64,000 nt of DNA. Source: Streptomyces mirabilis (lineage in GTDB: Bacteria; Actinomycetota; Actinomycetes; Streptomycetales; Streptomycetaceae). Under the pieces are notes generated by a model. The model had not been told where the DNA came from, made no database searches, and saw only the letters and a list, made by a program, of their open reading frames with translations. The DNA is taken from NCBI RefSeq assembly GCF_018310535.1, contig NZ_CP074103.1, positions 372,001-436,000 on the forward strand, given 5' to 3'. This document shows, piece after piece, positions 16,516-43,345 of this stretch (within the stretch, counting starts at the first letter, position 1; the number at the start of each line of letters is the position of its first letter). The translations under genes and the position numbers were made by a program.

Positions 16516-16565
16516 CCGGGCCGACCGGCCCGAAGCCAGAGGAACCGACGAACAGCAGGAGAGGC

Positions 16566-17750: not shown

Positions 17751-17833
17751 CAGCCCTCTTCCTTCCGCCCACCGGACCTGTACGAGGGCCCGGTGGGCGG
17801 CCCGTACGACCTCTGCACGAAGGCGTCCATCCC

Positions 17834-18400: not shown

Positions 18401-18436
18401 CGCACCCACTGCCAACCGCCGCACGCAGGAAGAGAC

Positions 18437-20004: not shown

Positions 20005-20013
20005 CCGCCGGCC

Positions 20014-20245: not shown

Positions 20246-20249
20246 CTCC

Positions 20250-22791
<2,542 letters not shown>

Positions 22792-22795
<4 letters not shown>

Positions 22796-24692: not shown

Positions 24693-24746
24693 GACCGGGT
24701 TTAATGGTGACGTCGGGTATTGGAACTATCCGAATGCCCCTGTGGG

Positions 24747-27802: not shown

Positions 27803-28140
27803 GGCCGCTCGAGACCGCGGATGCGGGCCCGCTTGGGCCGCAGGTCACCGACGCCTGTCTCGGCGCCAACGGCCTTCTTGGTTTGGGTAGTTGCTCCGGC
27901 ACCTGCTGCGGCGACGGGCTCGATGAGGTCGTCCATGGTGCAGTTGAGGATGTCGAGCAGAGCCATGAAGATCTTCAGGCTGAGTCGTTCGGGGCGCTCG
28001 ACGACGAGCCGGTAGACCTGGCTGGACGACAGGGTGATGCCGCGTTCGTCCAGTAGCGGGATGAGATCGGTGGTGGAGAAGAGCCCGCGGTCAGCCATGA
28101 TCTTGCGCAGGTGCCAGTGGTAGTCGAGCTTCGCGGCCAT
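27799..28140 (-). CDS. XRE-type helix-turn-helix regulator
   Basis: A 113-residue protein. The first 70 residues fit a lambda-repressor-like fold of the HTH_26 kind (GLFSTTDLIPLLDERGITLSSSQVYRLV, cited in parts; then RLSLKIFMALLDILNCTMDDLI). The tail is short, basic and rich in Ala/Gly. It overlaps the integrase stop by one base (TGATG) and the zinc-ribbon gene start by four, so it is part of the same polycistron and may regulate the element. Confidence 0.85.
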   Translation of the reverse strand: MAAKLDYHWHLRKIMADRGLFSTTDLIPLLDERGITLSSSQVYRLVVERPERLSLKIFMALLDILNCTMDDLIEPVAAAGAGATTQTKKAVGAETGVGDLRPKRARIRGLERP

Positions 28141-29267
28141 CAGCGGTCCTTGTCTGCGGGGATCGGGGCGAGCGCGGGAGCAAGTGCCTTGTGGAGCATG
28201 GTGTTCATGAAGTCGTCGCTGACGTGGGTGTAGATGGCGGTGGAGCTGTCATTCTCGTGACCGACTTGCTGTTGCAGAAACCGCCGGTCAACCCCGTCCT
28301 CCGTGAGGTGGGTGACGTAGGAGTGGCGAGCGGAGTGGACCGTCAGTGCCTTCGGGAGCTTCAGCGCGTCGCGGTAGGCGACGAACCGGGCGTTGATCTC
28401 CGCCGGCTTGATGCGGCCGCCCCGCTCGGTCACCCACAAGGCGGGGTGGTCCTCGCAGCCGAACCGCGGCCGTACGTTCTCTACGTAGTCAGCGACCGCG
28501 TCCACCGCCCAGTCCATCACCGACAGCACGTTCCGACGGCGCGGTGGCTGCCCCTTCTTCGCTTTGCCGTAGCGGACGTTGAGGGTGCCGTACCGGCCGA
28601 ACGGCGGAGCCTTCGCGTTCCGCCCGAAGTCCACTACATCCAGCTTCGACGTCTCTGTCCGGCGCAGACCCCACCCGTAGATGACCTTGAAGAGGGTGGC
28701 ATCGCGGTAGGCGGCGAGGGCTCCCTTGCGCTTTGCCCGTACCGCTCGATCGACCTGGTCGTCGGCGTAGTCGAGGAAGCGCTGGATCTCCTCGCGGGTG
28801 AACGGCCTCGCCTCGGGGCGCCCCTCGTAGTCGTTGAGGTGGGCGATGGTGTTCCACTCGTGGCAGATGGCCACGGGGTGAGTGCCGAAGGCGTCCTCGC
28901 AGGCCACCGACCAGCCGTAACGGCCGTCGATCAGGAACTCGCTGAACAGGCGCAGACTGCCCTGGTAGCTGCGGATCGTGGACGGCGCGAGGTGCTTCTC
29001 GCTGGTCAGCCACAGTGACCACTCGTCCACGTGGCCGGGCGTCCAGGACCACGGGTATTCGTTGGTGTACTCCAGGAACCTGCGTACGAGTCGTTCCCGG
29101 GCGGTGACCGTGTCCTCGCGGAGCCCACGAGCGGCCTGTTGGGCCCGCCAGCCCCGCACCATCGCCTCGATCATCGCGTCCTGTGGACGCAACTGGGCCA
29201 CCCCGGAGACCAGCTCCAGGTGAGCCGCCCCCGCCAGGTCGGCACGTCGCTGTAGACCCACTTTCAC
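28140..29267 (-). CDS. Tyrosine-type site-specific integrase
   Basis: A 375-residue recombinase with a SAM-like N-terminal core-binding domain (residues about 35-130) and a complete catalytic set: Arg in YGWGLRRTETSKL, the H-x2-R box HSARHSYVTHL, GHE in the last box, and the nucleophile in TAIYTHVSDDF. A GTG at 29267 abuts its AGGGGAGG directly; the GTG two codons later (29261) has a better 6-base spacing and is probably used. The XRE and zinc-ribbon genes follow as a unit. Confidence 0.92.
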   Translation of the reverse strand: MKVGLQRRADLAGAAHLELVSGVAQLRPQDAMIEAMVRGWRAQQAARGLREDTVTARERLVRRFLEYTNEYPWSWTPGHVDEWSLWLTSEKHLAPSTIRSYQGSLRLFSEFLIDGRYGWSVACEDAFGTHPVAICHEWNTIAHLNDYEGRPEARPFTREEIQRFLDYADDQVDRAVRAKRKGALAAYRDATLFKVIYGWGLRRTETSKLDVVDFGRNAKAPPFGRYGTLNVRYGKAKKGQPPRRRNVLSVMDWAVDAVADYVENVRPRFGCEDHPALWVTERGGRIKPAEINARFVAYRDALKLPKALTVHSARHSYVTHLTEDGVDRRFLQQQVGHENDSSTAIYTHVSDDFMNTMLHKALAPALAPIPADKDR

Positions 29268-29325
29268 CCTCCCCTTCAGAGGGCAAATCCTGCATCAGAC
29301 GGGATCTGATCTCCAAACTCCCAGT

Positions 29326-30795
29326 TCAGGCGGCCAAGTTGCAGGAGGATGGAGTCCGCGTCAGGCCACGCTCTGACCTCGCGACCTGCGGTTTCTCGCC
29401 CGTCTGATGCAATTCCTGAGGGTTGAGGTAGTGCTCCTTCGTCGTTTCGACGTCCCGGTGCCCCAACAAGGTCTTCACCAGCCACCACGGGTCGCCGTAG
29501 AGCTGAGCGAAGTCGCGTCGGTCCGCCGCGGTCAGCCCGTACTTCTTGTCCATGAGCTCGTTCAGCACGATCAGCGTGTAGAGCGCCATGGAGTGCCGCG
29601 CGGCATGCGGGCTCGCGTACGGGGCCTTCCCCCGTACCGCAGCCGACCTCAGCGGGTGCGGGATCTCTCGCTCCTCCGGCGTCAACAGAGTTTCCTCGCA
29701 CCGCTGATTGGCCTGCCAGAACACCGTGTTCCATCGGTCCGGCAACATCGGCATGCCCTGCTCGGTCAACCACAGCCACGCCGGCTCCGGACCGTGCGGC
29801 CCCTCGACGAACAGCCACTGCCGCTCGCGCCAGTCCAGCAGGCTCAACTCCCGCCGGCCTGCCACCCCGGCCCGGTCCACCCAGTGCACGACCGGAGCCC
29901 GGCCGTGCGTCACGTTCGTGACCAGCCGCATCAGCGACAGCTTCTCGTAACGGCCCTCCTGCTGGGCACGCTGGATAGCCCACGTCCGCTCGGACTCGCT
30001 GTAGGCACCGAGCTGGCGCACCGACTCGACCGAGGTGTAGTACGTGCGGTCACGCTTCGACCGCGACAGCGCGCTGGCCACCTGGCCATGGCAGTAACGT
30101 CCAGACCGCAGGCGCCGGGTCGGTACCTCGAACGTCAGCATCGCCCCAGCTTCCTGCCGCCGCAGGCCCGAGCTGAGCGCCAGCCCAACGAACGAGGTGT
30201 TCCGCAGTTCGGTTCGGCCGTCCCAACCGGGCAACGGTGCCCCGTCGCGGCCAAGTCCTCGCAGCCCCAGGTCCTGCCACAGACCCCAGGTCCGCGGCGT
30301 CAGCCACGACACCCGAGAGCTACGCGCGCTTGCCTCACGGTCCGCGCGACGCCCCACGTCCAACGGGAGAGGACTCACCTTCGCCCATTTGTAGAGCTGG
30401 GTCAGCGCAGCTGCCTCCCGGTTCCACTTCGCACCGCCGACTCGCTGCGGATTCAACGGCGAATCGACGCGGAATTCCTTGTACGCCCGCAAGTCCGTGT
30501 CGGTCGCCGCCCGCCAGTGAACGCCCCGCCGCCAAAGCCACGACAACAGCAGACGAATATCCGTCGCATAATTCCGACGCGATTCTCTCTCCAGGTCGCG
30601 AAAATCGGGCCAGAGAGCGAACTGCAGCAATTCTGCGTCCACGACGAAATCAGGCCGTACAAAGACCGGATCGCCCGGGCGAAGTCCCACCGCGTCCAGA
30701 GCGGTTGGCAGGTCGCGGACCCCCAGCACCCCCTCCTCCGGCAGCGGCCCCCACCGCTCCGGATCCGGCACGAACACCAGCCACCACTCGTCCAT
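29326..30795 (-). CDS. Tyrosine-type site-specific integrase (island edge)
   Basis: A 489-residue recombinase. Core-binding region RRNYATDIRLLLSWLWRRG near residue 75; catalytic Arg in LSSGLRRQEAGAM; H-x2-R in SPHAARHSMALY; GH in TLLGHRDVETTKEHYL, whose Tyr is the nucleophile. The catalytic domain carries large insertions, hence the length. It is the first gene of the minus-strand island and starts only about 30 bases from the truncated GFA gene, so it lies where an attachment site would be expected. Confidence 0.9.
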   Translation of the reverse strand: MDEWWLVFVPDPERWGPLPEEGVLGVRDLPTALDAVGLRPGDPVFVRPDFVVDAELLQFALWPDFRDLERESRRNYATDIRLLLSWLWRRGVHWRAATDTDLRAYKEFRVDSPLNPQRVGGAKWNREAAALTQLYKWAKVSPLPLDVGRRADREASARSSRVSWLTPRTWGLWQDLGLRGLGRDGAPLPGWDGRTELRNTSFVGLALSSGLRRQEAGAMLTFEVPTRRLRSGRYCHGQVASALSRSKRDRTYYTSVESVRQLGAYSESERTWAIQRAQQEGRYEKLSLMRLVTNVTHGRAPVVHWVDRAGVAGRRELSLLDWRERQWLFVEGPHGPEPAWLWLTEQGMPMLPDRWNTVFWQANQRCEETLLTPEEREIPHPLRSAAVRGKAPYASPHAARHSMALYTLIVLNELMDKKYGLTAADRRDFAQLYGDPWWLVKTLLGHRDVETTKEHYLNPQELHQTGEKPQVARSERGLTRTPSSCNLAA

Positions 30796-30825
30796 CTGCC
30801 ACCCCTGCGAGCCCCTTGAACTTAC

Positions 30826-30951
30826 TCAATCATCAGGGAAGCACAGGTGCGGGTAGACGGCCGGCCCCTTGACGGTGAAGCGGATCCGTCCGCACAGGCA
30901 TCCGCCGGAGCGCTCCTGGGCTGCGGCGACGATGTCGGGGGTGGCGTTCAT
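30826..30951 (-). pseudogene. Truncated GFA (glutathione-dependent formaldehyde-activating) family gene
   Basis: A 41-codon frame starts at an ATG that overlaps the stop of the haem-oxygenase-like oxidase gene by one base (TGATG). Its product has the N-terminal GFA/CENP-V zinc motif GGCLCGRIRFTV and GPAVYPHLC, then stops in FPDD where the family normally continues with a second cysteine cluster and about 100 more residues. It is the remains of a coupled fifth enzyme whose 3' part was lost when the recombinase island joined here. Either the fragment is inert or the operon has lost a zinc enzyme step. Confidence 0.72.
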
Positions 30952-31781
30952 CAGTTCATCTCCGAGGCACGGTGGGCGAGTTGAGCCCACCAGTGTGTCA
31001 TTCCCTCTGCGATCGTGAGGAAGCCGTCGAGGGCCTGGGGCAGGTCGATGTGGAAGAGTTCACTCTCTCTGATGAATCGCGCCAGACCTTCGATGTGGGC
31101 AGCCTCGACGCTCAGCCCGCCGACCTGGGCGGCCTCGTGTTCGTCGTCGAGGTGGAGCTCGTAGTAGTAGTGCAGGGCCTTGAGCTCGCTGCCGCTGCCC
31201 TGACCGGTCAGCACGCCGTAGCGGTTGGTGATGTCGCGCAGGATCTCGGTCTCGGCGATCGCCACGGCCTCGGTCGCGTAGTAGGCGCCCGCGATGTGGC
31301 TGGGCATGTGCGAGCCGACCATCCACTGGTGGAGGTTGACCAGCGTCTCGGTCTCGCGGGCGGGCACGTGGCCGTTGACGAGGAGTCCGAGATCGGACAG
31401 GAGCGCGTTGGTGTAGAGGACGTAGTGCGCGGGGACCTTGCCGCGCTCGCCGCCCTCTTCCAGGTGGTTGCGGCGCAGCTCGTGCGCGAGTTCGGGGCAG
31501 AACCCCTCCACGCTGGTGGCGGCCGCCTTGAGGTACTGCGCGTTGTAGCGGGCGAAGACGCTCAGCTCTTCGATGTACATCCGGGCCTGGCGCTCGTTGA
31601 GGTCGGCCGCGCCGACCTTCTCGGCGATCTTCCCGTACGTCCAGTCGACCATCGGCGTCAGGTGCGCGGTGACCAGGGCGTTGCCGGAGGTGAACTTGCC
31701 CAGCAGAGTGCCGTTGACGGCGCTCTGCGTCTCGGGGTTGGCCTTGATGTACGCCTGGATGAGGCTGTTGTCGGGGGTCAT
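30951..31781 (-). CDS. Haem-oxygenase-like diiron oxidase (HDO) family protein
   Basis: A 276-residue all-helical protein. The conserved stretch HELRRNHLEEGGERGK (about residues 100-115), the Glu of YYATEAVAIAETE (about 167-179) and the helix YYYELHLDDEHE (about 205-216) supply the Glu/His/Asp ligands expected of haem-oxygenase-like diiron oxidases such as CADD-, BesC- and UndA-type enzymes. These use O2 to hydroxylate, desaturate or fragment amino-acid-derived substrates. Its ATG overlaps the JmjC gene stop by four bases. As part of the repeat-peptide cluster it is a candidate peptide-tailoring oxidase. Confidence 0.8.
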   Translation of the reverse strand: MTPDNSLIQAYIKANPETQSAVNGTLLGKFTSGNALVTAHLTPMVDWTYGKIAEKVGAADLNERQARMYIEELSVFARYNAQYLKAAATSVEGFCPELAHELRRNHLEEGGERGKVPAHYVLYTNALLSDLGLLVNGHVPARETETLVNLHQWMVGSHMPSHIAGAYYATEAVAIAETEILRDITNRYGVLTGQGSGSELKALHYYYELHLDDEHEAAQVGGLSVEAAHIEGLARFIRESELFHIDLPQALDGFLTIAEGMTHWWAQLAHRASEMN

Positions 31782-33100
31782 TTCTTGGTGTCCTCCGTGT
31801 CGGCGGGGCGGGGCGACAGCTGCAGGCCGCCGGTGGCTCCCAGGGCCCGGACGGCCGCGAGGAGTTCGGGGTTGTCAGGCAGAGCGATCGTGTCGCCGTC
31901 GTTGAGCGCGGCGACGGTGTCCCGGTCCAGGGCCGCGTCATCGAGGGCGATGCCCGTCTGATGGCCGCGCAGCAGGACCTGCCGGGTGTCGTCGCCGCTG
32001 TCGAGGGTGGTCACCTGGTAGGGGGCGATCAGGGTGATCTCGGCGCCGGGCGTCACCTGCTCGGGGTCGAAGGCGTCCGCGGCTTCCTGGCGGGCGAGGT
32101 CACCTTCGACGAGTTCCCAGCCGCCGTTGCTGAGCAGCGTGGCCCACCGCTGCTCGGCGTGCTGGCGGGCCTCGCCGCCGACGCGGTCGACGGCGAGGAG
32201 CAGCAGTTCGCGGCCGACGCCGGACAGCCGGTCGGCGACGGCGTCGAGCCCAACCGCCGTGTCCGCCATCGCGGAGGGCTCGTTGAGCGGGTCGTCGGGT
32301 CCCTCGCCGGCCAGCGCGGCGAGCACGTCCGGGATGATGCGGCTCTGCAGGATCTGCGCGTACGGGTAGGTGTAGAGCGGCATGGCCACCGAGACGGAGA
32401 AGGTGTCCTGGGTGCCGACGTGGAAGACCCGGCGGGGCAGGAACAGGGCGTCGCCCGGCTCCAGGAGGAAGTGCTCGGCCTCTTCCAGCAGCGCCTGGTA
32501 GTCGCCGAGGGTGGCCTTTTTGCCGCCAGTGAGCTTCTCGTACTGCTCGGCGGGCCAGCAGTAGAAGTTCTTGGCGTTGGGGCCGAGGTGGACGAGGAAG
32601 GCGTCCTCGTAGCCCTCGTGGATGCCGAACGCGGTCCCGCTGTAGTTGCCGGCGAAGGCGACCTGTTCGGCGCCGCCCAGGGGCAGGCCCCACCCGTCGA
32701 TGACGCTCTTGAGGAAGGTGCCGAGGCCGGCGGCGAGGGCGGGGCTGATGGTCTCCAGGTTGTTGATGACCAGGGAGAACCGCTCGGCGGCGGCGACATC
32801 TTGCATCCACGGCACGAAGGCGTCCACGCCCTCGTCCCAGGAGGGGGCGGTCAGTGCTTGGGCCAGGAGGTCGTCGCGGCGGTCCTCGCCGACGTAGACG
32901 CGCGCGTGCGCCTTGATGTCGGCGCTGGCGGCGTGGGCCCGGCGGATGGCCTCGAATCCCGCCAGGACGTCGTCCGGTCCGGCTGCGGCCGCGGGGATGA
33001 TGCCCTTGAACAGGTAGGGCGTGGTCCGTCCGGTGGTGTGCTCGGGGAAGGTGCCGGTCCAGAATGCCTGGTCGGGGGGCCAGGGGTAGGTGCTGTTCAT
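31778..33100 (-). CDS. JmjC/cupin-fold Fe(II) oxygenase-like protein
   Basis: A 440-residue protein. The cupin core spans about residues 140-240, with GTAFGIHEGYEDAFLVHL (His161) and LFLPRRVFHVGTQ (His227) as likely metal ligands, like JmjC/Cupin_4 peptide hydroxylases. A long C-terminal region (residues 260-440) includes a winged or SMC-like domain of unknown role, with paired acidic strands (IALDDAALDRDTVAALNDGD). The ATG at 33100 has CAGGAGA 9 bases upstream. JmjC hydroxylases act on residues of proteins or peptides, so the neighbouring repeat peptide is an obvious substrate candidate. Confidence 0.78.
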   Translation of the reverse strand: MNSTYPWPPDQAFWTGTFPEHTTGRTTPYLFKGIIPAAAAGPDDVLAGFEAIRRAHAASADIKAHARVYVGEDRRDDLLAQALTAPSWDEGVDAFVPWMQDVAAAERFSLVINNLETISPALAAGLGTFLKSVIDGWGLPLGGAEQVAFAGNYSGTAFGIHEGYEDAFLVHLGPNAKNFYCWPAEQYEKLTGGKKATLGDYQALLEEAEHFLLEPGDALFLPRRVFHVGTQDTFSVSVAMPLYTYPYAQILQSRIIPDVLAALAGEGPDDPLNEPSAMADTAVGLDAVADRLSGVGRELLLLAVDRVGGEARQHAEQRWATLLSNGGWELVEGDLARQEAADAFDPEQVTPGAEITLIAPYQVTTLDSGDDTRQVLLRGHQTGIALDDAALDRDTVAALNDGDTIALPDNPELLAAVRALGATGGLQLSPRPADTEDTKK

Positions 33101-33161
33101 CAAGGGTCTCCTGATGTTCGGGCGGCGCGGGGCAAGGGGCCCGGGTGGCCGGGCGGCGGGA

Positions 33162-34307
33162 TCAGGTGAGGTAGTCCTCGGGGCCGCCGAGGCGGACGGT
33201 GTCGAGCGTGAAGCAGTGGAAGCCGCCGCCGAACAGGCGCCGGTGGCGGTGGCGGACCGGGATCACGGTGAAGCCGCGGCGCTCCAGGACGGCGATCAGC
33301 TCCGGGTAGAGGGAGTTGACGACGACGGTGTTCTCGTCGACGGACAGCAGGTTGATGTCCATGTACCGGCTGCCGATGGGGATGACGAAGCCGAGGTCGC
33401 TGTAGTCCGGGAAGTTGCGGTCGTCGGTCTCGGGGGCGTAGATCACGTCCCAGGACTGCATGGCCTCGGGGAGAAATTTCAGGTACTCCGGTGAGCGCAG
33501 CAGCATCAGGCCGGGGCGCAGCGGGACCAGAACGCTGTCGATGTGGTTGTCCGCCATGGCGTCCAGGCGGTGGAATCGCAGGTCGCGCAGGTTGTCCCGG
33601 AGCCAGCGCAGGGCGAGTTCGTGGTTGAGGTTGGCGACGTTGACCAGGACGTCGCGGCCCAGGCGCATGCACTGCGCGCCGTCGAAGACCATCTCCAGGC
33701 CCAGGCCCTCGATCGTGCCGGCCATCTCGCCTTCGGTGGCGCGGGCGACGTCCAAGCCCTGGCGGGTGAAGTAGCCGGTGTCGAGGGAGTCACGGGTCAG
33801 GGCGGGCCGGGGCATGCTCAGCCAGTTCGCACCCCCGGCCTGGTAGTAGCGGTAGAAGGCCGGCTTGAGCAGGTCGTTCTCGAAGATGCGGGCGCGGACG
33901 TGGGGCGCAGTCTCCACGATGGTGTTGCCCAGGACGATGCTCTGGTCGCGGACGTTGAGCGGCGGGGTGGCCCTCGCGTCCCAGTGCGGGGAGCGGATGT
34001 CGACGTCCTTGCCCGGGGCCGCGGGCCGCAGAACGTTCACCCCGCATCCGGTCAGGGCATCGGCCAGGCCGGCGATGTCCTCGTTGAGCTCGTCAAGGAG
34101 TTGCGGGGGGATCGGCAGGAGTTCCTCCCCCGACGGGCTGGCATGCCCGTCGAGGGCGGGGGCGACGTTGTCGTAGAAGAACAGCCGCCACGAGGTGTCG
34201 GTGTGGTGGGCGTTGTAGTGATCAGCGCGGCCGAGGACCACTTCTTCAAGTCGGGTGAACTCGTCGAAGCTGTTCAGGGCCGGCGGGGCAGGGGCGGTCT
34301 GGGGCAT
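33162..34307 (-). CDS. Amidinotransferase (glycine amidinotransferase family)
   Basis: A 381-residue protein of the guanidino-group-modifying superfamily. Likely catalytic triad: Asp209 in VFDGAQCMRLG, His255 in NHIDSVLVPLRPG and Cys365 in GGGFHCFTLDTVR, with NVRDQSIVLGN earlier in the chain. This matches L-arginine:glycine amidinotransferase and StrB1-type enzymes, which move the amidino group of arginine onto an amine. Here the acceptor could be a free amino acid, or the Lys or N-terminal amine of the repeat peptide. GAGGAGG precedes the ATG. It lies 61 bases before the JmjC gene. Confidence 0.9.
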   Translation of the reverse strand: MPQTAPAPPALNSFDEFTRLEEVVLGRADHYNAHHTDTSWRLFFYDNVAPALDGHASPSGEELLPIPPQLLDELNEDIAGLADALTGCGVNVLRPAAPGKDVDIRSPHWDARATPPLNVRDQSIVLGNTIVETAPHVRARIFENDLLKPAFYRYYQAGGANWLSMPRPALTRDSLDTGYFTRQGLDVARATEGEMAGTIEGLGLEMVFDGAQCMRLGRDVLVNVANLNHELALRWLRDNLRDLRFHRLDAMADNHIDSVLVPLRPGLMLLRSPEYLKFLPEAMQSWDVIYAPETDDRNFPDYSDLGFVIPIGSRYMDINLLSVDENTVVVNSLYPELIAVLERRGFTVIPVRHRHRRLFGGGFHCFTLDTVRLGGPEDYLT

Positions 34308-34420
34308 GGCGGGCCGCCTCCTCGGCGGCGGGCGACGGCGCGCCCCTGCCTCCGGCGCGCGGGTGCGCGCTGGGAGGGGCGGTGCCGTACGGGGGTTCGG
34401 CGGGCGGGTTCAGGGTGCGG

Positions 34421-35461
34421 TCATGCGGCCGAGGGGTGCCGGTGCGGGGTGCAGGCGGCGCTGGCGGTGGCGAGCCGGGCGATGATGTCCTCGATCACGC
34501 ACGGCTGGTCGGGAGTGGAGCGCCGGCGGAAGAAGTAGCCGGAGCACCAGGGCACTTCCTCCCACCGCTGTAGACGCTCCGAGGTGAGGGCGCGGGCCTC
34601 GGGCAGGCGCCGCCAGGGGATCTGCGGACACCAGTGGTGGACGGGGTGGTACATGTCGTCGAGATGGCCGCCGAGCAGGTGCCGGGTGAGCCAGTGCGAG
34701 CTCCAGCCGCGGGTCTGCAGGAGGATGTCGTCGTTCTCGATCAGCCCGGCGTGGTTGCCCAGATCAGTGATCCACGTGACGACCGGCCGCACCAAGACGA
34801 GCGGGAGCAGCCAGTAGAGCAGGAGGTACGGCACGCCGCCCACGGGCCACAGTGCGGCGACGACGGCCGCCCAGATCAGGGCACGGGCGGCCAGCGCTCG
34901 CCACGCCTCCCCCGGCGCGCGGGTGACCAGGGTCAGCACGGCGGTCTTCGGCAGGCGCCACATGGCGTTGCGCACGATGACCCGCAGGACGAACGCGCGC
35001 CGGCTGGGCGCCCGGCCGGCGGCACGGATGTTGCCCGCGAGGTAGGACTGGAACATCGGATCGTCGTCGGAGCCGAGCTTGGCGTGGTGCACATAGTGGC
35101 TGCTGCGGTACGGCGCGAAGCCCTCACCGAGTAGCCCGGTCAGCAGGTATCCGATGACCCGGTTGCCGCGGCGGGTGGCCATGAGCTTGGAGTGCACGCA
35201 CTCGTGCCCGAGGTTGGACAGGTGGCGCTGGCGCACGCCGATGTAGCAGACGGCGATCAGCGGGCCGACGACGTGGCCGACGAGATGCCCGGCGATCGCT
35301 GCGGCGGCGATCGCGACAAGGTCCCAGGCGACATCCCACAGACCGATCGTCGGGCGTCCGCAGAGCTTCTCCAGGTCGGTGATGAGCTGCTGGCCGAGGG
35401 CCTTACGCACGGGGCCGGAGGCTCCGGTGCCGTTGCGGGTCCTGCTGGCGGGGCTGCCCAT
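34421..35461 (-). CDS. Membrane fatty-acid-desaturase-like diiron enzyme
   Basis: A 346-residue membrane protein with the three His boxes of the desaturase/hydroxylase superfamily: HECVH (86-90), HYVHH (122-126) and HPVHH (272-276), plus DLGNHAG (about 233-239). At least four hydrophobic helices are visible. In secondary metabolism such enzymes hydroxylate or desaturate lipids, amino acids or peptides. It is the first gene after the repeat-peptide gene and its hairpin. GGAGGA precedes the ATG. Whether it modifies the peptide or supplies a lipid is unknown. Confidence 0.88.
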   Translation of the reverse strand: MGSPASRTRNGTGASGPVRKALGQQLITDLEKLCGRPTIGLWDVAWDLVAIAAAAIAGHLVGHVVGPLIAVCYIGVRQRHLSNLGHECVHSKLMATRRGNRVIGYLLTGLLGEGFAPYRSSHYVHHAKLGSDDDPMFQSYLAGNIRAAGRAPSRRAFVLRVIVRNAMWRLPKTAVLTLVTRAPGEAWRALAARALIWAAVVAALWPVGGVPYLLLYWLLPLVLVRPVVTWITDLGNHAGLIENDDILLQTRGWSSHWLTRHLLGGHLDDMYHPVHHWCPQIPWRRLPEARALTSERLQRWEEVPWCSGYFFRRRSTPDQPCVIEDIIARLATASAACTPHRHPSAA

Positions 35462-35504
35462 CAGGTCCTCCAGTCGATGTGGTGCGGGGTGGGAATGTGC
35501 CGTG

Positions 35505-35566
35505 CTCCGGCGCGCCCGCGGCTGGGCAGCGCACTGGCGGGCGCACTGTTGGCGGGCGCGCCGGAG
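35505..35566 (-). terminator. Stem-loop between the repeat-peptide gene and tailoring genes
   Basis: Perfect 15-bp arms at 35505-35519 and 35552-35566 separated by a 32-base loop. It lies between the precursor stop (35595) and the desaturase start (35461). Partial terminators in this position are common in peptide natural-product operons, where they let precursor transcripts exceed enzyme transcripts. Confidence 0.6.
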
Positions 35567-35594
35567 GACGACGGAAGGGTGGTTCAGCCGCGGA

Positions 35595-35873
35595 TCAGGC
35601 GGCGGTGAGGGCGCTGTCCGGGCGCATGCCGGCCTTGAGGTCGGTGGCGTCGGGACGCATCCCGAGCTTCAGCTCCGGGGCGTCGGGGCGCATGCCGGTC
35701 TTGAGGCCGGTGGCGTCGGGACGCATCCCGAGCTTGAGGGCGCCCGCGTCGGGACGCATGCCGAGCTTCAGGTCGGTGGCGTCGGGACGCATGCCGGCCT
35801 TCAGGTCTGGGGCGTCCGGGCGCATGCCGGCCTTCAGGCCGGTGTCCGGGGTCATTGCGGCGGTAGCGGTCAT
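35595..35873 (-). CDS. Repeat-containing precursor peptide (LKxGMRPDAxx x7)
   Basis: A 92-residue protein. After a 12-residue head (MTATAAMTPDTG) come seven head-to-tail units of 11 residues with consensus L-K-[AL/T]-G-M-R-P-D-A-x-x, the last ending DS, then a short ALTAA tail. There is almost nothing else, and no signal peptide or membrane helix. The ATG has GAGGGAGA 8 bases upstream. Multi-copy core peptides separated by Lys-containing spacers are typical of ribosomally made, post-translationally modified peptides. Adjacent oxygenases and an amidinotransferase fit tailoring of these cores. I know of no named family with this repeat. A structural or metal-binding repeat protein is the alternative. 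Confidence 0.85.
   Translation of the reverse strand: MTATAAMTPDTGLKAGMRPDAPDLKAGMRPDATDLKLGMRPDAGALKLGMRPDATGLKTGMRPDAPELKLGMRPDATDLKAGMRPDSALTAA
35613..35837 (-). repeat. Seven in-frame 33-bp tandem repeats
   Basis: The repeats encode L-K-x-G-M-R-P-D-A-x-x. The DNA units are near-identical (GGGATGCG or GGCATGCG, TCCCGACG runs), pointing to recent expansion. The last unit is cut to nine codons. Confidence 0.92.
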
Positions 35874-36388
35874 GGAGGTTCTCCCTCTTCGGTCGCGGGT
35901 GACCCCGCGAGTCCGTGTGATCGGCTGATGGAGCTGCCGGGCCGCGGTCGGGTGAGGTGCTGAACCGTCGGCTCGGACGTCATGGGCGCGAGCGCCCGCC
36001 GGTGGAAAGTCGCGCCGGAGCACGTCCGCTCCATCCGTGGATGAGCGTTGGATGAGCGTTGCGGTACGTGGTCGCGCTGGGCGCTTGGCCAGTCACGCTA
36101 GGGCTGCGCCGGAGGCAGCCGCAACGGCTATGGGCGTTGCGGCGGTTGCACGGGACCGTTGCGTGACCGTTGCGCGTCCATGCCACCTGAGCTGCGGAAA
36201 CGCCGAAGTCTCGTCCTGGAACAGTGGCGGATCGGGGCCGTCGGGCGCTGCGATGCCAGCAGAAGGGCTTCTGCTGCGCGCGTCGCCGCGGCTAGCTTGT
36301 GGGACCGCCGAGGAGCCGTGCACGAGGACGCCGTGGCGACCGGATTCCCTCCATTTGCCGTTGAAAACAGAGGCCTTGAGGAGCACAC
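35874..36388. promoter_or_regulatory. Divergent promoter region with 11-bp-spaced repeats
   Basis: This 515-base gap between the repeat-peptide gene (minus) and the synthetase-like gene (plus) has no convincing reading frame. It contains GATGAGCGTT twice (36040-36049, 36051-36060) with an 11-bp period, and ACCGTTGCG twice (36155-36163, 36166-36174) also 11 bp apart, with further GTTGC copies at 36136 and 36145. Direct repeats one helical turn apart are the kind of site used by SARP-type activators, but no SARP gene lies in the window. Confidence 0.45.
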
Positions 36389-37267
36389 GTGCTCAACCCC
36401 GTTGTGATGAAGTCCGACCTGCTGTTCAGCCTGCGTGACACGCTGCGCTCAGAGACGTTCGTCGAGGTGGTCACCCCTACGGTGCGCAGAGCCGACCTCG
36501 GCCCGGGACGTCGCGTGCCGGTCGATCTCGACGGGGGCCGCTTCCTGCGGGCGATGATCGGCCCGGCGCTGCGCGTGAACATGGAGCACCACCGGCGGGT
36601 CTTCGAAATCGGTCAGTGCTTCCGGCCCGAGAAGCCGGACGAGCTGCACGCGCCCGAGTTCCAGATGCTCGACCTCTACGCCGCCGACGAGAATTTCGAG
36701 TTCCTGTTCGCGCTGGCCGAGCGCCTGGTCGTCCCGCACATCCGTTACACCCCCGAGCGGGTCTCTGTCGCCGGCCACATCCATGACGTCTTCGGCATCG
36801 ACCTGCGCCGCGAGCCCCTCGGCGATCTGCCCGCACAGATGGCCGCCCACCTGGACATGGGTACCGAGGTGCCGTTCAAGACGGTGCTCGGCCGGTTCGT
36901 GGAGCGCGAACTGGAGACCCAGAGCACGGGTGCCGCACTGTTCCTGACCGAGTACCCGATCGGCGGGGACGAGCCGTGCGCCCGTCTCACACCGGGCACG
37001 ACCGCCGTCCTCAACCGTTTCGAGGTCCTGATCGACGGCCTCGAAGTCGTGCACGGCTACGAGGACGAGCCCGACCGGGCCGCGTTCGTCGAGCGGGCCC
37101 GTGCGGTGGACCTGTACGACGACGAGCAGGCCCTGGCGTGGAAGGCGATCGACGCCGGGCAAGCGCCGGCCCACAGCGTCGGGCTCGGCATCGGCATCGA
37201 GCGGCTGTGTATGGCCGCCTCCGGCATCAAGGACATCAGCGTCTTCCAGCAGTCGGCCCAGTTCTGA
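36389..37267 (+). CDS. Stand-alone class II aminoacyl-tRNA synthetase-like catalytic domain
   Basis: A 292-residue protein equal to the catalytic core of Lys/Asp/Asn-type synthetases without an anticodon-binding domain. Motif 2 is CFRPEKPDELHAPEFQML (about 77-94) and motif 3 is GLGIGIERL (about 265-273), both intact for ATP and amino-acid activation. Similar truncated enzymes (EpmA/PoxA, AsnA) activate an amino acid and attach it to a protein or small molecule rather than to tRNA. The GTG at 36389 follows GAGGAG by about 6 bases. Divergent from the repeat peptide, it may load an amino acid onto it. Confidence 0.85.
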   Translation: MLNPVVMKSDLLFSLRDTLRSETFVEVVTPTVRRADLGPGRRVPVDLDGGRFLRAMIGPALRVNMEHHRRVFEIGQCFRPEKPDELHAPEFQMLDLYAADENFEFLFALAERLVVPHIRYTPERVSVAGHIHDVFGIDLRREPLGDLPAQMAAHLDMGTEVPFKTVLGRFVERELETQSTGAALFLTEYPIGGDEPCARLTPGTTAVLNRFEVLIDGLEVVHGYEDEPDRAAFVERARAVDLYDDEQALAWKAIDAGQAPAHSVGLGIGIERLCMAASGIKDISVFQQSAQF

Positions 37268-37293
37268 CCGCCACCCTTCCGAAAGGAGCCGCG

Positions 37294-38166
37294 ATGTCCT
37301 TGTCGCTGCGCCCGCTCGACGACAGCGGCTTCGGCGCCGTCGTCGACTGCAACCTCGCGACCGAAGCCGAAGGGCTCGCGCCCCAGCTGGCGCGAGCCCT
37401 GCACCAGCACAGGCTGCTGGTCGTGCCCCGCCAGCACCTGACCCACGCCGATCTCCTGACCGTCGCCTCCTGCTTCGGAACGGTGGACACGAGCATCGAC
37501 CGCCGCTATGCCGTCGGCGGCTTTCCCGGGCTGACCGTCATCAGCAACATCGTCGAGGACGGCGAGTACGTCGGCATCTACGACGGGGACGATGAGGAGG
37601 AATGGCACGCCGACAACAGCTTCAAGCCACAGCTGACCGCCGTGACGCTGCTGTACTCGGTCATCACCCCCGAGGAAGGCGGCGAGACCCGCTTCGCCGA
37701 CGCGACCCGCGCCTACACCGGCCTCCCCCCGGCGGCACGGCAGCGGATCGAGAAGATGCGCGCGGTGCACTCCATCCAGCAGCTCGGCGCGTTGCAGAGC
37801 CAGGCCAGCGGCGGGCAGTCGTCGGCCGCGGCCGGGAGCCTCGCCGGCCAGCCAGAGGTCGAGCACCCGCTCGTCCTGACCCATCCGGTCACCGGAGCCC
37901 GCTCACTGCTGCTCGGCTCCATGGTGATCCGCTGCGTCACCGGACTCTCCGATCAGGACAGCCGCGCCCTGATCGACGACCTGCTGGAGCACACGACCAG
38001 AGCGCCGTACCTCTACAGCCATCGCTGGAGTCAGGGCGACCTCGTCGTGTGGGACAACCTCGCCACCCTCCACACCGCATCCCCGTGCGACAGCTCCCGC
38101 CACCCCCGCCTGCTGTATCGCGCTGCCGTTCGACAGCATGCCGCTTCCCGTGGCTCCGAGGGATGA
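37294..38166 (+). CDS. TauD/clavaminate-synthase-like Fe(II)/2-oxoglutarate dioxygenase
   Basis: A 290-residue protein. The iron facial triad is visible: His and Asp in EWHADNSF, and a distal His in NLATLHTAS, followed by the 2-oxoglutarate-binding Arg in LLYRAAV. It has the GGETRFADATRAY segment common to TauD/TfdA enzymes. Members hydroxylate amino acids such as arginine, or taurine-like compounds. GAAAGGAG precedes the ATG, 26 bases after the synthetase-like gene, so the two form one operon. Confidence 0.9.
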   Translation: MSLSLRPLDDSGFGAVVDCNLATEAEGLAPQLARALHQHRLLVVPRQHLTHADLLTVASCFGTVDTSIDRRYAVGGFPGLTVISNIVEDGEYVGIYDGDDEEEWHADNSFKPQLTAVTLLYSVITPEEGGETRFADATRAYTGLPPAARQRIEKMRAVHSIQQLGALQSQASGGQSSAAAGSLAGQPEVEHPLVLTHPVTGARSLLLGSMVIRCVTGLSDQDSRALIDDLLEHTTRAPYLYSHRWSQGDLVVWDNLATLHTASPCDSSRHPRLLYRAAVRQHAASRGSEG

Positions 38167-38218
38167 CCGGCGGCGAGAACACGCTGTCTGCGCTCGTCGC
38201 CAGCCCTAGTGTTTGCCC

Positions 38219-39355
38219 ATGACCGCGAAGGCCGTGAAGGTGCCCCTGAAGGAAACCGCCCTCAACCTCGAGCGCATCACCCAGATCGGACACCAAGTGC
38301 ACGGCGTGTGCCCAGACTTCGACGCCGGCGCCTTCGTACAGGACGTGATGTCCGACCTACCCGCACTGGAGCTGAAAGACCGGATTTCTCGGACCAGCCA
38401 GGCACTGCACACCCACCTTCCGGTCACCGGCACCGAAGCCCTCGACGTCCTGCTGCGCTCGCTGCCGCCGACTCCCGAAGCCGCCGGCATCACAAACGAC
38501 TTCGGGTGGCACACCTACTCCCCGCACTCCGACTTCGTCGCGCGCTACCTGCGCACCGGCGAGTACCTGGACCAAGCCCTCGACGCCCTCGCGCGCTTCA
38601 CCCGGTACTTCTCGGCAGAGGTCGCCGTGCGGGACTTCCTCAACGACTTCCCCGACGAGACGATGAAGGCCGTTGACGCGTGGTCCCGCGACGAGGACCA
38701 CCGGACCCGCCGGCTCGCGAGTGAAGCCACCCGCCCCCTCCTGCCCTGCGCGCCCCGCATCTCCCTGCCCGACGATGCGGCGCTCCCTGTGCTCGACCGG
38801 CTCTACGCCGATTCCAGCACCTACGTCCGTACCTCCGTCGCCAACCACCTCCACGACCTCGCCGGCACGCAGCCCGAACTCGTCCTGGCCACCCTCGGGC
38901 GGTGGAAGGACACCGCCAGCGCCACCGACCAGCACTTCGCCTTCATCGCCAGGACGGCCCTGCGGAGCAGGCTCAAGAAGGGCTCGCCGGACGCCTACGC
39001 CTTCCTCGGCTACCCGCACGACGCACCTCTCGAGCTGACACCCCTCGTCCTGGAACGTACCGAGTTGGCCGACGGCGACGTGCTGACCTTCTCCGCCGCC
39101 CTCACCGCCACCGTGGCCGTCCCGGTGGATGTCATGTTCGTGATTTCCTCCACCACCCCCACCGGCAAGCCGCGCGAGAAGGTCTACTTCCTCAACCGCA
39201 ACACCGTCCAGCCCGGTCGGCCGCTCCTTCTGGCCAAGCCGCACAAGCTGCGTTCGACGGCCACAACGAAGATCACTCCCGGCCCGTACACCGTCGCGAT
39301 CCAGGTCAACGGCCGCCGCTTTCCCGCCGCGCCGTTCACGGTCGTCGCGGCATGA
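38219..39355 (+). CDS. AlkC-like DNA alkylation repair (HEAT-repeat) protein
   Basis: A 378-residue protein. The helical repeats VRDFLNDFPDETMKAV, RRLASEATRPLLP and YVRTSVANHLHDLA are those of the AlkC/AlkD HEAT-like DNA glycosylase family, and a beta-rich C-terminal domain (residues about 265-378) resembles the immunoglobulin-like addition of AlkC-beta types. These enzymes remove bulky or cationic alkylated bases. Lying 52 bases after the dioxygenase gene, it may give self-protection if the cluster product alkylates DNA, or it may simply be a neighbour. Confidence 0.8.
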   Translation: MTAKAVKVPLKETALNLERITQIGHQVHGVCPDFDAGAFVQDVMSDLPALELKDRISRTSQALHTHLPVTGTEALDVLLRSLPPTPEAAGITNDFGWHTYSPHSDFVARYLRTGEYLDQALDALARFTRYFSAEVAVRDFLNDFPDETMKAVDAWSRDEDHRTRRLASEATRPLLPCAPRISLPDDAALPVLDRLYADSSTYVRTSVANHLHDLAGTQPELVLATLGRWKDTASATDQHFAFIARTALRSRLKKGSPDAYAFLGYPHDAPLELTPLVLERTELADGDVLTFSAALTATVAVPVDVMFVISSTTPTGKPREKVYFLNRNTVQPGRPLLLAKPHKLRSTATTKITPGPYTVAIQVNGRRFPAAPFTVVAA

Positions 39356-39639: not shown

Positions 39640-39765
39640 ATGAATCCCGCCCCCACCCTCGTGCATCAGCCCTCCGGAATCGAACGACGGCCCACCCCCG
39701 TGACGGTGCGCCGTGTTGACGACACCCGCTGCTCAGCACGTCTGGATACGAGGTGGGTGGCATGA
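39640..39765 (+). CDS. 41-residue peptide coupled to an ABC exporter
   Basis: GGAGG lies about 5 bases before the ATG at 39640. The stop overlaps the ABC transporter ATG by four bases (ATGA), so translation is probably real. The product has a Pro/Thr-rich front half and an Arg/Asp-rich end with one cysteine (RRVDDTRCSARLDTRWVA). There is no membrane helix. Its size, position before an exporter and the two PIMT-type methyltransferases in the same operon suggest a precursor peptide. I recognise no known precursor class, and it could instead be a leader for translational coupling. Confidence 0.5.
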   Translation: MNPAPTLVHQPSGIERRPTPVTVRRVDDTRCSARLDTRWVA

Positions 39766-41762
39766 GTGAGTCGACCGATGAAACCGCCGAGACCGTCCCG
39801 GGGCCGCGCCCCACCCCCCTTCCGCCCGCCCCGCCGACCGCGTCACCGCAAGCCGCGCTGGGCGCCGGCGCGGAGCAGCCCTCCCCCGCCCCGGAGATGC
39901 GGTACGTGGACCTGACCGGCAGCCGTGAAGCGGCCGGCCGCTCCATCCGGATGCGCGACATGGCCCGGCGCCTGCCCCAGCTGGTGCGGCGTTCGCTGGC
40001 ACTGGCCTGGCGCGTCGACCGGAAGGCCACCACCGGTCTCCTGCTGTGCCAGACGGTCGCCGGCGTCATGCAGGCCCTGGGCCTCATCGCGATCAGCGGA
40101 ACCCTCACCGCACTGCTGACCAGTGGCGACGTCTACCATCGGCTCCTCCAGGCATGGCCGTCCGTAGCCCTGCTGGCGGCTGCGACCGGGGTGCGGGCGC
40201 TGCTGGGCATCACCGTCAGCTGGCTCTCCTCCCGACTGGGCCCGCTCATGTCGCGCGAAGCCGAGCAGATGCTGCTCACCGGCTGCGCCGAGGTGGAGCT
40301 CTCCGCCTACGACGACCCCGACTTCAACCGCGACCGCGAAGCCGCCGACCGCGGAGCACAGGTCACCGGGGACCTGGTCAACGAGGGCCAGGACCTGATC
40401 GCCTCGGCGGCCTCCTTCCTCGCCGGGGCCATCGTGCTGGCCGGCGTGAGCTGGGTGCTGCTTCCCCTTCTGGTCGTGGCCAGCCTGCCGCAGGCCCTTG
40501 CCCAGGTCAGCGCCGCCCGGGTCCGCTACCTGGCGAACCTGCGCAGCAACGGCGACAACCGCATGCTGTCGGTGCTGCGTTGGCACATCTTCACCCGCGA
40601 GGCAGCCGACCAGATCCGCGCCGGCACCATGGCCGAATTCCTGTCCGGCCGGTACCGGCAGACGGTCGCCCGGATCAACCGCGAAGACCGGACCGCGGCC
40701 GACAAGGGCGCCCGCATGTCGCTGTTCGGCGCGCTGTGCGGCGGCCTCGGATCGGCTGTCGTGTGGGCGGCGGTGGTGTGGCTGCTGGCCACCGGCCGCA
40801 TCAGCGTCGGCCACGCCGGCACGGCCGTCTTCGCTCTGCAGACGGTGGGCCAGTCGGTGCGCGGGCTGGTCGCCGTGGGGGCCCGTGCCGTGCGTACCGG
40901 CCTCTACATGGACGACTGGACCCGGTTCCTCGACTTGGCCGGCGGCTACACCATGCGCCGCGGCGAGCACCGGCCAGCGCCACCAAACGAGATCAAGATC
41001 AAGTCGGTCTCGCACCGCTACGCCGGGAAGGACCAGGACGCGTTGTCCGACGTCTCGCTCACGCTGCGCCGGGGCGAGGTCACAGCACTGGTCGGCTTCA
41101 ACGGATCGGGGAAATCAACGCTGTCGAAGCTGGTCAGCGGCCTGTACCTGCCCACTGGAGGACAGGTGCTGTGGGACGGCGTCCCCACCGACGACGCCGA
41201 CCCGCAGGCACTGTGGCAGCAGGTGGCCCTGGTGCCACAGGACTACGCGCACTGGCCGCTGACGGTCCGCGAGAATGTCACCCAGGGGCAGCCCACGGCC
41301 CGCGGTGACGCGGCGGTCCTCGAAGCCTGCGAGGCCTCCGACGCGGACGAGGTCGTCGACAAGCTCGGCGCCGGCCTGGACACGCTCCTGGCCCGCGAGT
41401 GGCTGAACGGCGAGGAACTGAGCGGCGGCCAGTGGCAGCGCATCGCGCTCGCCCGGGCATTCTTCCGCGAGGCAGGGCTCCTGGTCCTCGACGAACCGAC
41501 CGCCAACCTCGACCCTCGCGCCGAATACAGAATCTTCCAGCGGCTGCGGGACCTGGCCCAGGACCGGGTGGTGTTGCTGGTCACGCATCGCATCACCAAC
41601 GTCGCCGTGGCCGACCGGATCGTTGTCCTCGACGAGGGCAGAGTCGTGCAGGAGGGCACCTACAAGGACCTCGCCGCCCAAGAAGGCGGCCCGTTCCAGC
41701 AGTTGCTGTCCTACCAGGTCACCTCGGAGCCGGACGGCGAGAAGCACGGAACCCGCGCGTGA
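39762..41762 (+). CDS. ABC exporter, fused permease and ATPase
   Basis: A 666-residue half-transporter. After a Pro-rich head come six membrane segments (about 85-370) and an ATPase domain with Walker A GFNGSGKSTL, signature LSGGQWQRIALARAF, Walker B LLVLDEPTANLD and switch His LLVTHRI. It is of the lipid/peptide exporter class. No N-terminal C39 peptidase domain is present. It is coupled to the 41-residue peptide upstream, so export of a peptide or of a small-molecule product are both possible. Confidence 0.92.
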   Translation: MSESTDETAETVPGPRPTPLPPAPPTASPQAALGAGAEQPSPAPEMRYVDLTGSREAAGRSIRMRDMARRLPQLVRRSLALAWRVDRKATTGLLLCQTVAGVMQALGLIAISGTLTALLTSGDVYHRLLQAWPSVALLAAATGVRALLGITVSWLSSRLGPLMSREAEQMLLTGCAEVELSAYDDPDFNRDREAADRGAQVTGDLVNEGQDLIASAASFLAGAIVLAGVSWVLLPLLVVASLPQALAQVSAARVRYLANLRSNGDNRMLSVLRWHIFTREAADQIRAGTMAEFLSGRYRQTVARINREDRTAADKGARMSLFGALCGGLGSAVVWAAVVWLLATGRISVGHAGTAVFALQTVGQSVRGLVAVGARAVRTGLYMDDWTRFLDLAGGYTMRRGEHRPAPPNEIKIKSVSHRYAGKDQDALSDVSLTLRRGEVTALVGFNGSGKSTLSKLVSGLYLPTGGQVLWDGVPTDDADPQALWQQVALVPQDYAHWPLTVRENVTQGQPTARGDAAVLEACEASDADEVVDKLGAGLDTLLAREWLNGEELSGGQWQRIALARAFFREAGLLVLDEPTANLDPRAEYRIFQRLRDLAQDRVVLLVTHRITNVAVADRIVVLDEGRVVQEGTYKDLAAQEGGPFQQLLSYQVTSEPDGEKHGTRA

Positions 41763-41869: not shown

Positions 41870-43345
41870 GTGCCGATCACCCGCTCCCACATCCGCGCGA
41901 CCCTCGACAGCTACCTGACTCGGCACCCGCACGAGCGAGAGTCCCTGGCCGGCCTGTTTGCCGTCCTGGACGGGCCGGACGACCCGTCCAGCCGGGCGAC
42001 TCTTCCCGGCCACGTCACCTGCAGCGCGGTCGTCATCGACCGAGACCGGCGCGTACTGCACATCGTCCACAAGGCCACTGGGCTGCTGCTCACCCCGGGC
42101 GGGCACGCCGAGGCGGACCGGAGCCTGATGGCCGCTGCTCTTCGGGAGGTGTCCGAGGAGACGGGCATCCGGCCCGGTGACCTGTGTCTGACCCCGCAGT
42201 TCCTGGGCGGCCCGATCGACATCGACGTGCACGGGATCAACGCCAATCCCGCAAAGGGCGAGCCGAGCCATCAGCACTTCGACTTCCGCTTCGCCTTCTA
42301 CGTCAGCGCCGAGCAGCTGCCGCCGCTCAGGCTCCAGGACGAAGAGGTCTCGGGTTCCCAGTGGCTTGCGTTCGCCGACGTCAGGTCCCCAACGCTGCGG
42401 GCCAAGCTGTCGGACGCCGAGGCCGATGGGCTCGACGGGCAGCCGGAGCCAGTCAACGCGTCGGCTCTGGTCCACGACGGCTTCGGACGCTACCTGCTTC
42501 ATCTCAGGGATCTGCGGGAGGGCATCTGGGCGCCCGGGGTCTTCGACCTCCTGGGAGGCGGGCGCGAAAGGGATGACCGGGGCCTGGAGGACACCTTGCG
42601 GCGGGAGCTCGCCGAGGAGGCCCCCGGCCTTGCACCGGTGGGCTTGGCGCCCTACGCAGTCGAAGAGGCGAGGAGCGTCGACGGCCTCGCGGTGCCGATC
42701 AAGGTCTTCACGGCCCGCTGGAGCGGACACCCCGACACGGCGGGCCTACAAGAGGGCGTCCTTCTGCAATGGTTCACCCCCGACATGCTGGACCGACTAC
42801 CCATGAGTCCCGGTCTCGGCGACCTGATCCGCCGCCACGCGGCCGAGCACCCCCCGGCCGGCAGCCCGCCGGACCGCATCCGCCCACTGCACGAAGAGGC
42901 ACCGGAGGGGACCGAACTCCACATCATCGGCGTCCACCTTCACCTCCAGGACGAGCAGGGCCGGATCCTCCTCGGACTGCGCCATCCCGACTCGGCCTTC
43001 GCGCCGGACGAATGGCACTTTTTGGCAGGTCATTGCGAGAGGGAAGCCGCCATCAGCTGTTTGGTGCGCGAAGCTCAGGAGGAGGCCGGGCTGATCATCG
43101 ATCCCGGTGACATCGAGCTCGTGCATGTGGTCCACCACGTCGACTCGCCGACGGCGCGGGCACGGATCGCGCTCGTCTTCCAGGCCCGGGCATGGTCCGG
43201 TACCCCGCAACTCCTGGAGCCCGACCGGTGCGTGGCGTGGCGGTGGTTCAGCCCGCAGGATCTTCCGGCAAAGGTCGTGCCGTACACCCGCCTGGCGATC
43301 GAAGGCATCGTCGCGGGCCGCCCGTACACGCAGACGGGCTGGTGA
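41870..43345 (+). CDS. Triple Nudix hydrolase
   Basis: One chain of about 491 residues with three Nudix domains in series. Box 1 is GGHAEADRSLMAAALREVSEETG, given here in two parts: GGHAEADRS and REVSEETGI. Box 2 is GGGRERDDRG with RRELAEEAPG. Box 3 is AGHCEREAA with REAQEEAGL, one residue short in its first half. I prefer the GTG at 41870, since VPITRSHIRATLDSYL is how single Nudix relatives start; the GTG at 41759 overlaps the ABC stop (GTGA) and adds a low-complexity 37 residues. Nudix enzymes split nucleoside-diphosphate-X bonds or similar. Substrates are unknown. Confidence 0.87.
   Translation: MPITRSHIRATLDSYLTRHPHERESLAGLFAVLDGPDDPSSRATLPGHVTCSAVVIDRDRRVLHIVHKATGLLLTPGGHAEADRSLMAAALREVSEETGIRPGDLCLTPQFLGGPIDIDVHGINANPAKGEPSHQHFDFRFAFYVSAEQLPPLRLQDEEVSGSQWLAFADVRSPTLRAKLSDAEADGLDGQPEPVNASALVHDGFGRYLLHLRDLREGIWAPGVFDLLGGGRERDDRGLEDTLRRELAEEAPGLAPVGLAPYAVEEARSVDGLAVPIKVFTARWSGHPDTAGLQEGVLLQWFTPDMLDRLPMSPGLGDLIRRHAAEHPPAGSPPDRIRPLHEEAPEGTELHIIGVHLHLQDEQGRILLGLRHPDSAFAPDEWHFLAGHCEREAAISCLVREAQEEAGLIIDPGDIELVHVVHHVDSPTARARIALVFQARAWSGTPQLLEPDRCVAWRWFSPQDLPAKVVPYTRLAIEGIVAGRPYTQTGW

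Follow-up and report, generated by a model that had tools for sequence, protein, structure and literature searches.

What does a small peptide gene built from seven near-identical units do beside a group of oxygenases and a DNA glycosylase? This question is raised by a locus of Streptomyces mirabilis (assembly GCF_018310535.1) within a stretch of 64,000 nucleotides, hereafter the window (NZ_CP074103.1, positions 372,001 to 436,000), which is part of a 518-kb contig (C2 in the coordinates below). Judged from sequence, we propose with a probability of roughly 0.55 that the locus is a cluster resembling those for ribosomally synthesised and post-translationally modified peptides (RiPPs), in which one arginine per K-x-G-x-R-P unit is oxidised, likely giving a DNA alkylator, and in which an AlkC-type glycosylase would protect the producer. 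The genes for the peptide, the enzymes and the glycosylase lie together and are conserved. The peptide gene heads a minus-strand operon that continues with the genes for a desaturase-like oxygenase, an amidinotransferase, a JmjC enzyme and a haem-oxygenase-like dimetal oxidase (HDO), and it is faced by a divergent pair coding for a tRNA-ligase-like protein and a TauD-type dioxygenase:

35595..35873, minus strand: repeat precursor peptide, 92 amino acids, seven LKxGMRPD units (repeat and homologue searches)
34421..35461, minus strand: membrane fatty-acid-desaturase-like oxygenase with His boxes (PF00487, 7.6e-30; best NCBIfam match GntB, below cut-off)
33162..34307, minus strand: StrB1/AGAT-family amidinotransferase (match to StrB1, 1bwd, 7e-43)
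31778..33100, minus strand: JmjC/cupin enzyme, YcfD fold over full length (JmjC_2, 3.3e-5, and fold match)
30951..31781, minus strand: HDO, DUF3865, CADD-like (DUF3865, 3.1e-10, and fold match)
30847..30951, minus strand: GFA-family gene, first 35 codons only, interrupted by an inserted element (comparison with pFRL5)
36389..37267, plus strand: class II aminoacyl-tRNA-synthetase core, LysRS/EpmA-like, divergent from the peptide gene (tRNA-synt_2, 9.9e-22)
37294..38166, plus strand: TauD-type Fe/2-oxoglutarate dioxygenase (TauD, 1.1e-48)
38213..39355, plus strand: AlkC-type alkylpurine DNA glycosylase (solved AlkC 5vi0, E 7.8e-47, residues 11-377)
39753..41762, plus strand: ABC exporter, permease-ATPase (family profile matches)

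The first-pass annotation had already described the seven-unit peptide beside the desaturase, amidinotransferase, JmjC and HDO genes, together with the divergent pair of class II synthetase core and TauD dioxygenase, and the repeat, family and fold searches bear out this composition. It had overlooked the AlkC gene, which lies inside the region that it delimited, as well as the exporter, the downstream GFA, arginine-deiminase-like, antiporter and nitroreductase genes and the interruption of the operon at 30847.

The precursor and its conserved arginine

The precursor contains seven 11-residue units within its 92 residues, and Tandem Repeats Finder reports a period of 33, 6.9 copies and a score of 263 for the gene. 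The program-made open reading frame extends upstream to 36023; the pFRL5 homologue is annotated with 279 bp, encoding 92 residues. As the gene order recurs in other genomes and the codons of the fixed Gly, Arg and Pro residues differ synonymously from unit to unit, the peptide is not a product of chance.

Units were counted in 45 distinct precursors, requiring at least four of the five positions of K-x-G-x-R-P-[DG], which gave 197 units. Of these, 190 are perfect; the imperfect ones deviate at Lys (3), Arg (2), Gly (1) or the last position (1). Arg is preceded by Met (158), Val (31), Gln (4) or other residues, and Pro is followed by Asp (176), Gly (20) or Ala (1). Related peptides are encoded on two Nostoc plasmids, with units reading GLKTGVRPD and ALKVGVRPD; that of N. 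commune has 44 residues. Since K-x-G-x-R-P is kept across the 45 precursors and the Nostoc units retain GVRPD, Arg rather than Lys or Asp is the likely target, and we infer that it is the modified residue while Lys, Gly and Pro would serve recognition. Amidination of Lys as a general step and oxidation of Asp, both suggested earlier, find no support: Lys is replaced by Gln in three of the 197 units and the amidinotransferase was found in neither Nostoc stretch, and the Asp position is Gly in 20 units. In the N. carneum peptide (L066:10429-10602) the final repeat, KNWCSPRR, resembles a frame-shifted unit.

Beside the peptide, both Nostoc plasmids encode the JmjC enzyme (35-37% identical), the HDO (41-42%) and GFA. 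Because these recur, the core common to both phyla comprises peptide, JmjC, HDO and GFA; neither Nostoc stretch yielded a desaturase, an amidinotransferase or a deiminase, which therefore cannot belong to it. N. commune additionally encodes a ligase-like protein (32%), an ornithine/arginine-decarboxylase-family enzyme and one more gene, and N. carneum an amino-acid-adenylation protein and TAG, a 3-methyladenine DNA glycosylase.

The tailoring enzymes

The JmjC_2 score of the JmjC enzyme is barely above the cut-off, and its predicted fold follows that of the arginyl hydroxylase YcfD over the whole length. In this it is like YcfD/RoxA, which act on an Arg of ribosomal protein L16 and thus on an Arg within a protein. 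The metal motif of YcfD is HxD; unlike in YcfD/RoxA, it is here replaced by HxG (H162-x-G164 ... H228, numbered from the TTG start at 33103). HxG is present in all 57 aligned sequences and in both Nostoc copies, none of which thus has the HxD...H triad. As the metal-binding Asp is lost, plain hydroxylation of Arg is not assured. HxD is kept in JmjC relatives from Pantoea, Klebsiella and Streptomyces Mg1. The plasmids of the former two (L069, L070, L072) and of Mg1 (L071) carry two JmjC/cupin genes near small open reading frames ending in RDRRDTGH, RDRSDTGH or GPRQDVGH. An arginase-family gene is also present in those of Pantoea and Klebsiella; these loci are possibly another uncharacterised RiPP type using arginine.

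The HDO is assigned by both its DUF3865 score and its haem-oxygenase-like fold, and E108/E109, H119, E171, H210, E226 and H229, candidates for the three His and three carboxylate ligands of this family, are kept in 55 aligned sequences and both Nostoc copies. For the desaturase-like oxygenase the best named NCBIfam match is GntB, an arginine gamma-hydroxylase (112.7 bits, under the equivalog cut-off of 380 bits). The amidinotransferase has no Pfam match at E 0.1 and resembles StrB1 over its full length; Asp209, His255 and Cys365, which we take to be the AGAT/StrB1 triad, are invariant in five of five sequences, as are H105, D107 and H260 of TauD.

The ligase-like enzyme consists of a class II core with no anticodon domain and stays below the NCBIfam cut-offs (genX, 76.1 of 286.9 bits; lysyl ligases likewise); a final aminoacylation by this enzyme is possible. 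The family occurs in other contexts too: on Vibrio lentus plasmid p1 (L100:7351-8322) a protein 34.5% identical to that of the window is encoded close to a pair of ABC genes, and the 20 kb read around it gave no match to HDO or JmjC.

Distribution and gene context

Searching 392 Streptomyces genomes with the peptide gave matches in 36, of which the best five are true. Full-length HDO is present in exactly these five genomes, beside two C-terminal HDO fragments, which supports the coupling of peptide and enzymes. In a class-wide draw of 394 genomes the HDO was found in three, one of which (G445) is from another family and is the sole HDO genome among 35 of that family. Strains with the system include S. 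turgidiscabies Car8, S. anulatus, S. actuosus and S. violens, and among 72,556 plasmid records nine Streptomyces and two Nostoc plasmids encode the HDO.

Gene context was compared in 17 distinct actinobacterial clusters (the window, L032-L035, L042-L046, L050, L060, L063-L065, L068 and L085; L047, L048 and L049 repeat L032, L033 and L035) and the two Nostoc clusters, with 27 further peptides left out. Most of these clusters were located via their enzymes, so that the comparison of 392 genomes is the less biased test. Peptide, desaturase, amidinotransferase, JmjC, ligase-like and TauD genes are present in 17 of 17; HDO is present in 16 (not in L085) and AlkC in 16 (not in L032, where the ligase-like gene is split between two frames). 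Further along the complete operon of pFRL5 come GFA, a member of the arginine-deiminase family, a cation-proton antiporter and a nitroreductase, of which the last two were not seen in all clusters.

Enzymes without the peptide, or the peptide without enzymes, had been named as what would speak against the proposal. All 17 actinobacterial and both Nostoc clusters pair them; the departure is a Streptomyces NBC_00445 plasmid with a solitary JmjC relative (L073:14004-15347, 76% identical) and no peptide, HDO or AlkC within the 29 kb read around it. This plasmid and another that carries the cluster without HDO weigh against strict coupling. By its sequence features the system is RiPP-like: a gene for a short ribosomal precursor stands next to those of dedicated modifying enzymes and is conserved along with them.

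The AlkC glycosylase and the exporter

The window AlkC is matched in full length, including the C-terminal part, which is presumably Ig-like. Its residues E136, E171 and D215 (window numbering), which we assume to be the catalytic acidic residues, are kept in 21 of 21 places. AlkC adjoins TauD in 16 of the 17 actinobacterial clusters. The cluster copies are 52-100% identical to that of the window, five other Streptomyces AlkCs 33-38%. Matches better than 1e-200 occur in only five of the 392 Streptomyces genomes, namely four of the five producers and G275, whose copy is broken and adjoins an ABC gene as well as part of a TauD gene. We propose that the cluster AlkC is a self-resistance gene.

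On plasmids, 14 records contain an AlkC of more than 50% identity: the nine Streptomyces HDO plasmids, NBC_01201 (JmjC, peptide and AlkC, without HDO) and four others without HDO. Three of these four were read over about 20 kb around AlkC, with NBC_00841 left out, and no biosynthesis genes or precursor were found there. On NBC_01724 (L103:9007-14179) AlkC is accompanied by an ABC pump (90% identical), again with no biosynthesis genes in the stretch read. Cluster-type AlkC without biosynthesis genes was seen in L103, L101, L102 and L097, once with ABC pump and NUDIX gene; this would look like a resistance module able to travel alone, or the copies may be remnants.

Comparison with known systems

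The nearest likeness is to thiovarsolin (var) of Streptomyces varsoviensis, where deletion of VarO links a haem-oxygenase-like enzyme to desaturation of the Arg side chain; both systems have a repeating precursor, such an enzyme and an amidinotransferase (dispensable in var); var has no dedicated protease (PMC6511847), and none could be recognised among the proteins scanned here. In contrast, var depends on YcaO and TfuA and includes an ATP-grasp enzyme, none of which was matched among the cluster proteins scanned here; its core is APR/GPR instead of K-x-G-x-R-P, and the available text mentions no JmjC enzyme or DNA glycosylase (PMC6511847). Biphenomycin (bip/pbs) likewise employs a JmjC-domain enzyme that modifies an Arg-derived residue (Orn) of a ribosomal peptide, but together with MNIO, B12-radical-SAM and arginase, and the parts consulted mention no DNA-repair gene (PMC12707348, PMC12257519). 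SznF (streptozotocin) and GrbD-GrbE (graminine) oxidise the Arg guanidine with a cupin, SznF also with an HDO; as described in those texts their substrates are free amino acids, whereas here the cupin has the predicted YcfD fold with HxG and a repeat peptide is present (PMC9679993, PMC13108848).

In-cluster DNA glycosylases that guard the producer against its own alkylator have been reported, such as YtkR2 (yatakemycin), AlkZ (azinomycin), HedH4 and TxnU2/4, and AlkZ-like genes were noted near uncharacterised RiPP/depsipeptide-related clusters (PMC8626424, PMC9040887). Those are AlkD or HTH_42 types, unlike the AlkC found here, and AlkC in such a role is unmentioned in the parts available (PMC8626424, PMC9040887). 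No paper on the present system was found in the literature searched, most subscription journals being outside that search. Within it, a repeat peptide with dedicated oxygenases falls outside the described RiPP classes, as had been suspected, and nothing matches its joining of this core motif and these enzymes with resistance by a DNA glycosylase.

Proposed pathway and alternatives

In the proposed pathway Arg would be modified inside the peptide by JmjC and HDO, the two oxygenases that actinobacteria and cyanobacteria share. The guanidine side chain would, in actinobacteria, be elaborated by the membrane oxygenase together with the amidinotransferase and the arginine-deiminase-like enzyme, after which the units may be excised and the product finished by the tRNA-ligase-like enzyme and TauD. 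The ABC pump would export it. Its electrophile would alkylate DNA bases, and AlkC (TAG in one Nostoc cluster) would remove the adducts. Candidate changes at Arg, by analogy, are N-O/N-N bond formation, chlorination, desaturation, fragmentation or hydroxylation. Precedents exist for N-oxygenation (SznF, graminine; PMC9679993, PMC13108848), desaturation (thiovarsolin; PMC6511847) and hydroxylation (biphenomycin; PMC12707348, PMC12257519).

Several observations weigh against this pathway. The JmjC enzyme lacks the iron-binding Asp of YcfD, the scan of the proteins revealed no dedicated protease, and the Nostoc stretches gave no desaturase, amidinotransferase or deiminase. The CB02959 cluster is without AlkC and its tRNA-ligase-like gene is split between two frames, some AlkC is encoded in 54 of the 392 Streptomyces genomes and is thus not confined to these clusters, and the four HDO-less AlkC plasmids can possibly be read as remnants. 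The N. commune plasmid has no AlkC-type (PF08713) or TAG match; TAG beside the Nostoc cluster is a single case (N. carneum), and TAG is common (five of 14 control genomes).

Part of this also fits a RiPP-like pathway that makes something other than a DNA alkylator, AlkC repairing unrelated damage or acting as a DNA-binding regulator and the product having another target, e.g., as metal binder or non-DNA toxin. The wide occurrence of AlkC and the N. commune plasmid agree with it, as does AlkC residue 179 (window 38747-38749), adjoining the conserved catalytic stretch, which is Cys in the window and seven close copies and Trp in the other cluster and chromosomal copies examined. This explanation is unlikely, though the strongest of the alternatives, as AlkC stands next to TauD in nearly all clusters with its presumed catalytic residues kept, the cluster-type AlkC accompanies the exporter even without biosynthesis genes, and one of the Nostoc clusters lies beside another kind of alkyl-base glycosylase.

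Two more specific versions of the alkylator pathway concern the warhead. By analogy to SznF, HDO and the cupin-fold enzyme may form an N-N/N-O warhead (nitroso/diazeniumdiolate) on the peptide Arg, a doubtful sub-case with which the nitroreductase and AlkC would fit; neither fold search has the SznF cupin domain in its list of 50 matches, an absence that does not exclude homology. A change from HxD to HxG is the one that makes Fe/2-oxoglutarate halogenases, and BesD-BesC is a halogenase-HDO pair whose reaction releases formaldehyde. By this analogy, which is more speculative still, JmjC with HxG would halogenate the peptide Arg and HDO would then fragment or desaturate the side chain, with GFA handling formaldehyde, giving a ribosomally encoded alkylator. 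If so, a JmjC halogenase and a RiPP genotoxin would be combined in one system common to actinobacteria and cyanobacteria.

Least probable is that the peptide is only a scaffold or regulator and that a small molecule is assembled by the enzymes out of free arginine and other amino acids, with no peptide core in the product: known GntB, amidinotransferases and arginine deiminases work on free amino acids or small molecules and the Nostoc adenylation and decarboxylase-family genes agree with this, but one Arg per unit is conserved in multiple copies, the peptide gene precedes the enzyme operon in the clusters read, and JmjC has the full-length fold of enzymes that modify protein residues.

The locus in the window strain

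Identity to pFRL5 (99.7%) stops at window position 30847, past codon 35 of GFA, where an element of about 54.7 kb (C2:348187-402846) lies inside the GFA gene. The following features surround the cluster:

1..30846, no strand assigned: part of the inserted element of about 54.7 kb that splits the cluster (comparison with pFRL5)
28140-29267 and 29326-30795: integrase-like genes in the inserted element (reading from translated sequence, no family search)
41870..43345, plus strand: NUDIX protein, three matched stretches, adjoining the cluster, membership uncertain (family profile matches)

The remainder of the GFA gene lies near C2:347860-348189, beyond the window edge, and together with the deiminase, antiporter and nitroreductase genes forms the other flank (about C2:345-348 kb), 54.7 kb off; in pFRL5 both flanks are contiguous with no element between them. 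As the element interrupts GFA and splits the cluster, the pathway may be impaired in this strain, while intact copies are present in other strains. Besides another GFA homologue (C2:365372-365794, 71% identical), the element encodes a cadmium-resistance transporter (window 4918-5544) and, in one block (window 13197-17750), proteins of the rhodanese, aminotransferase class V and Cys/Met-metabolism families. NRRL F-6676 (L044:10831-11500) has the identical GFA insertion junction with DNA about 85% identical, either an old common insertion or a preferred integration site.

Genes of MurB-like, beta-lactamase-family, EPSP-synthase/MurA-family and hexapeptide-transferase proteins near the cluster (window 56150-60348) are perhaps a separate biosynthesis locus. 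ARAGORN calls two tRNAs, one whose anticodon has four bases (cgcg) and one tRNA-Cys (window 10358-10449 and 51508-51599); both overlap long open reading frames and are probably spurious.

Significance

To our knowledge none of the glycosylase-guarded alkylators yatakemycin, azinomycin B, hedamycin, trioxacarcin and LL-D49194 is a ribosomal peptide. If the proposal is true, alkylators made from gene-encoded repeat peptides would be a class that can be mined from genomes, with the combination of K-x-G-x-R-P repeat, JmjC-HDO pair and AlkC as a usable search key, and AlkC would gain a role in self-resistance. The JmjC family with its natural HxG site is a candidate for new chemistry on arginine.

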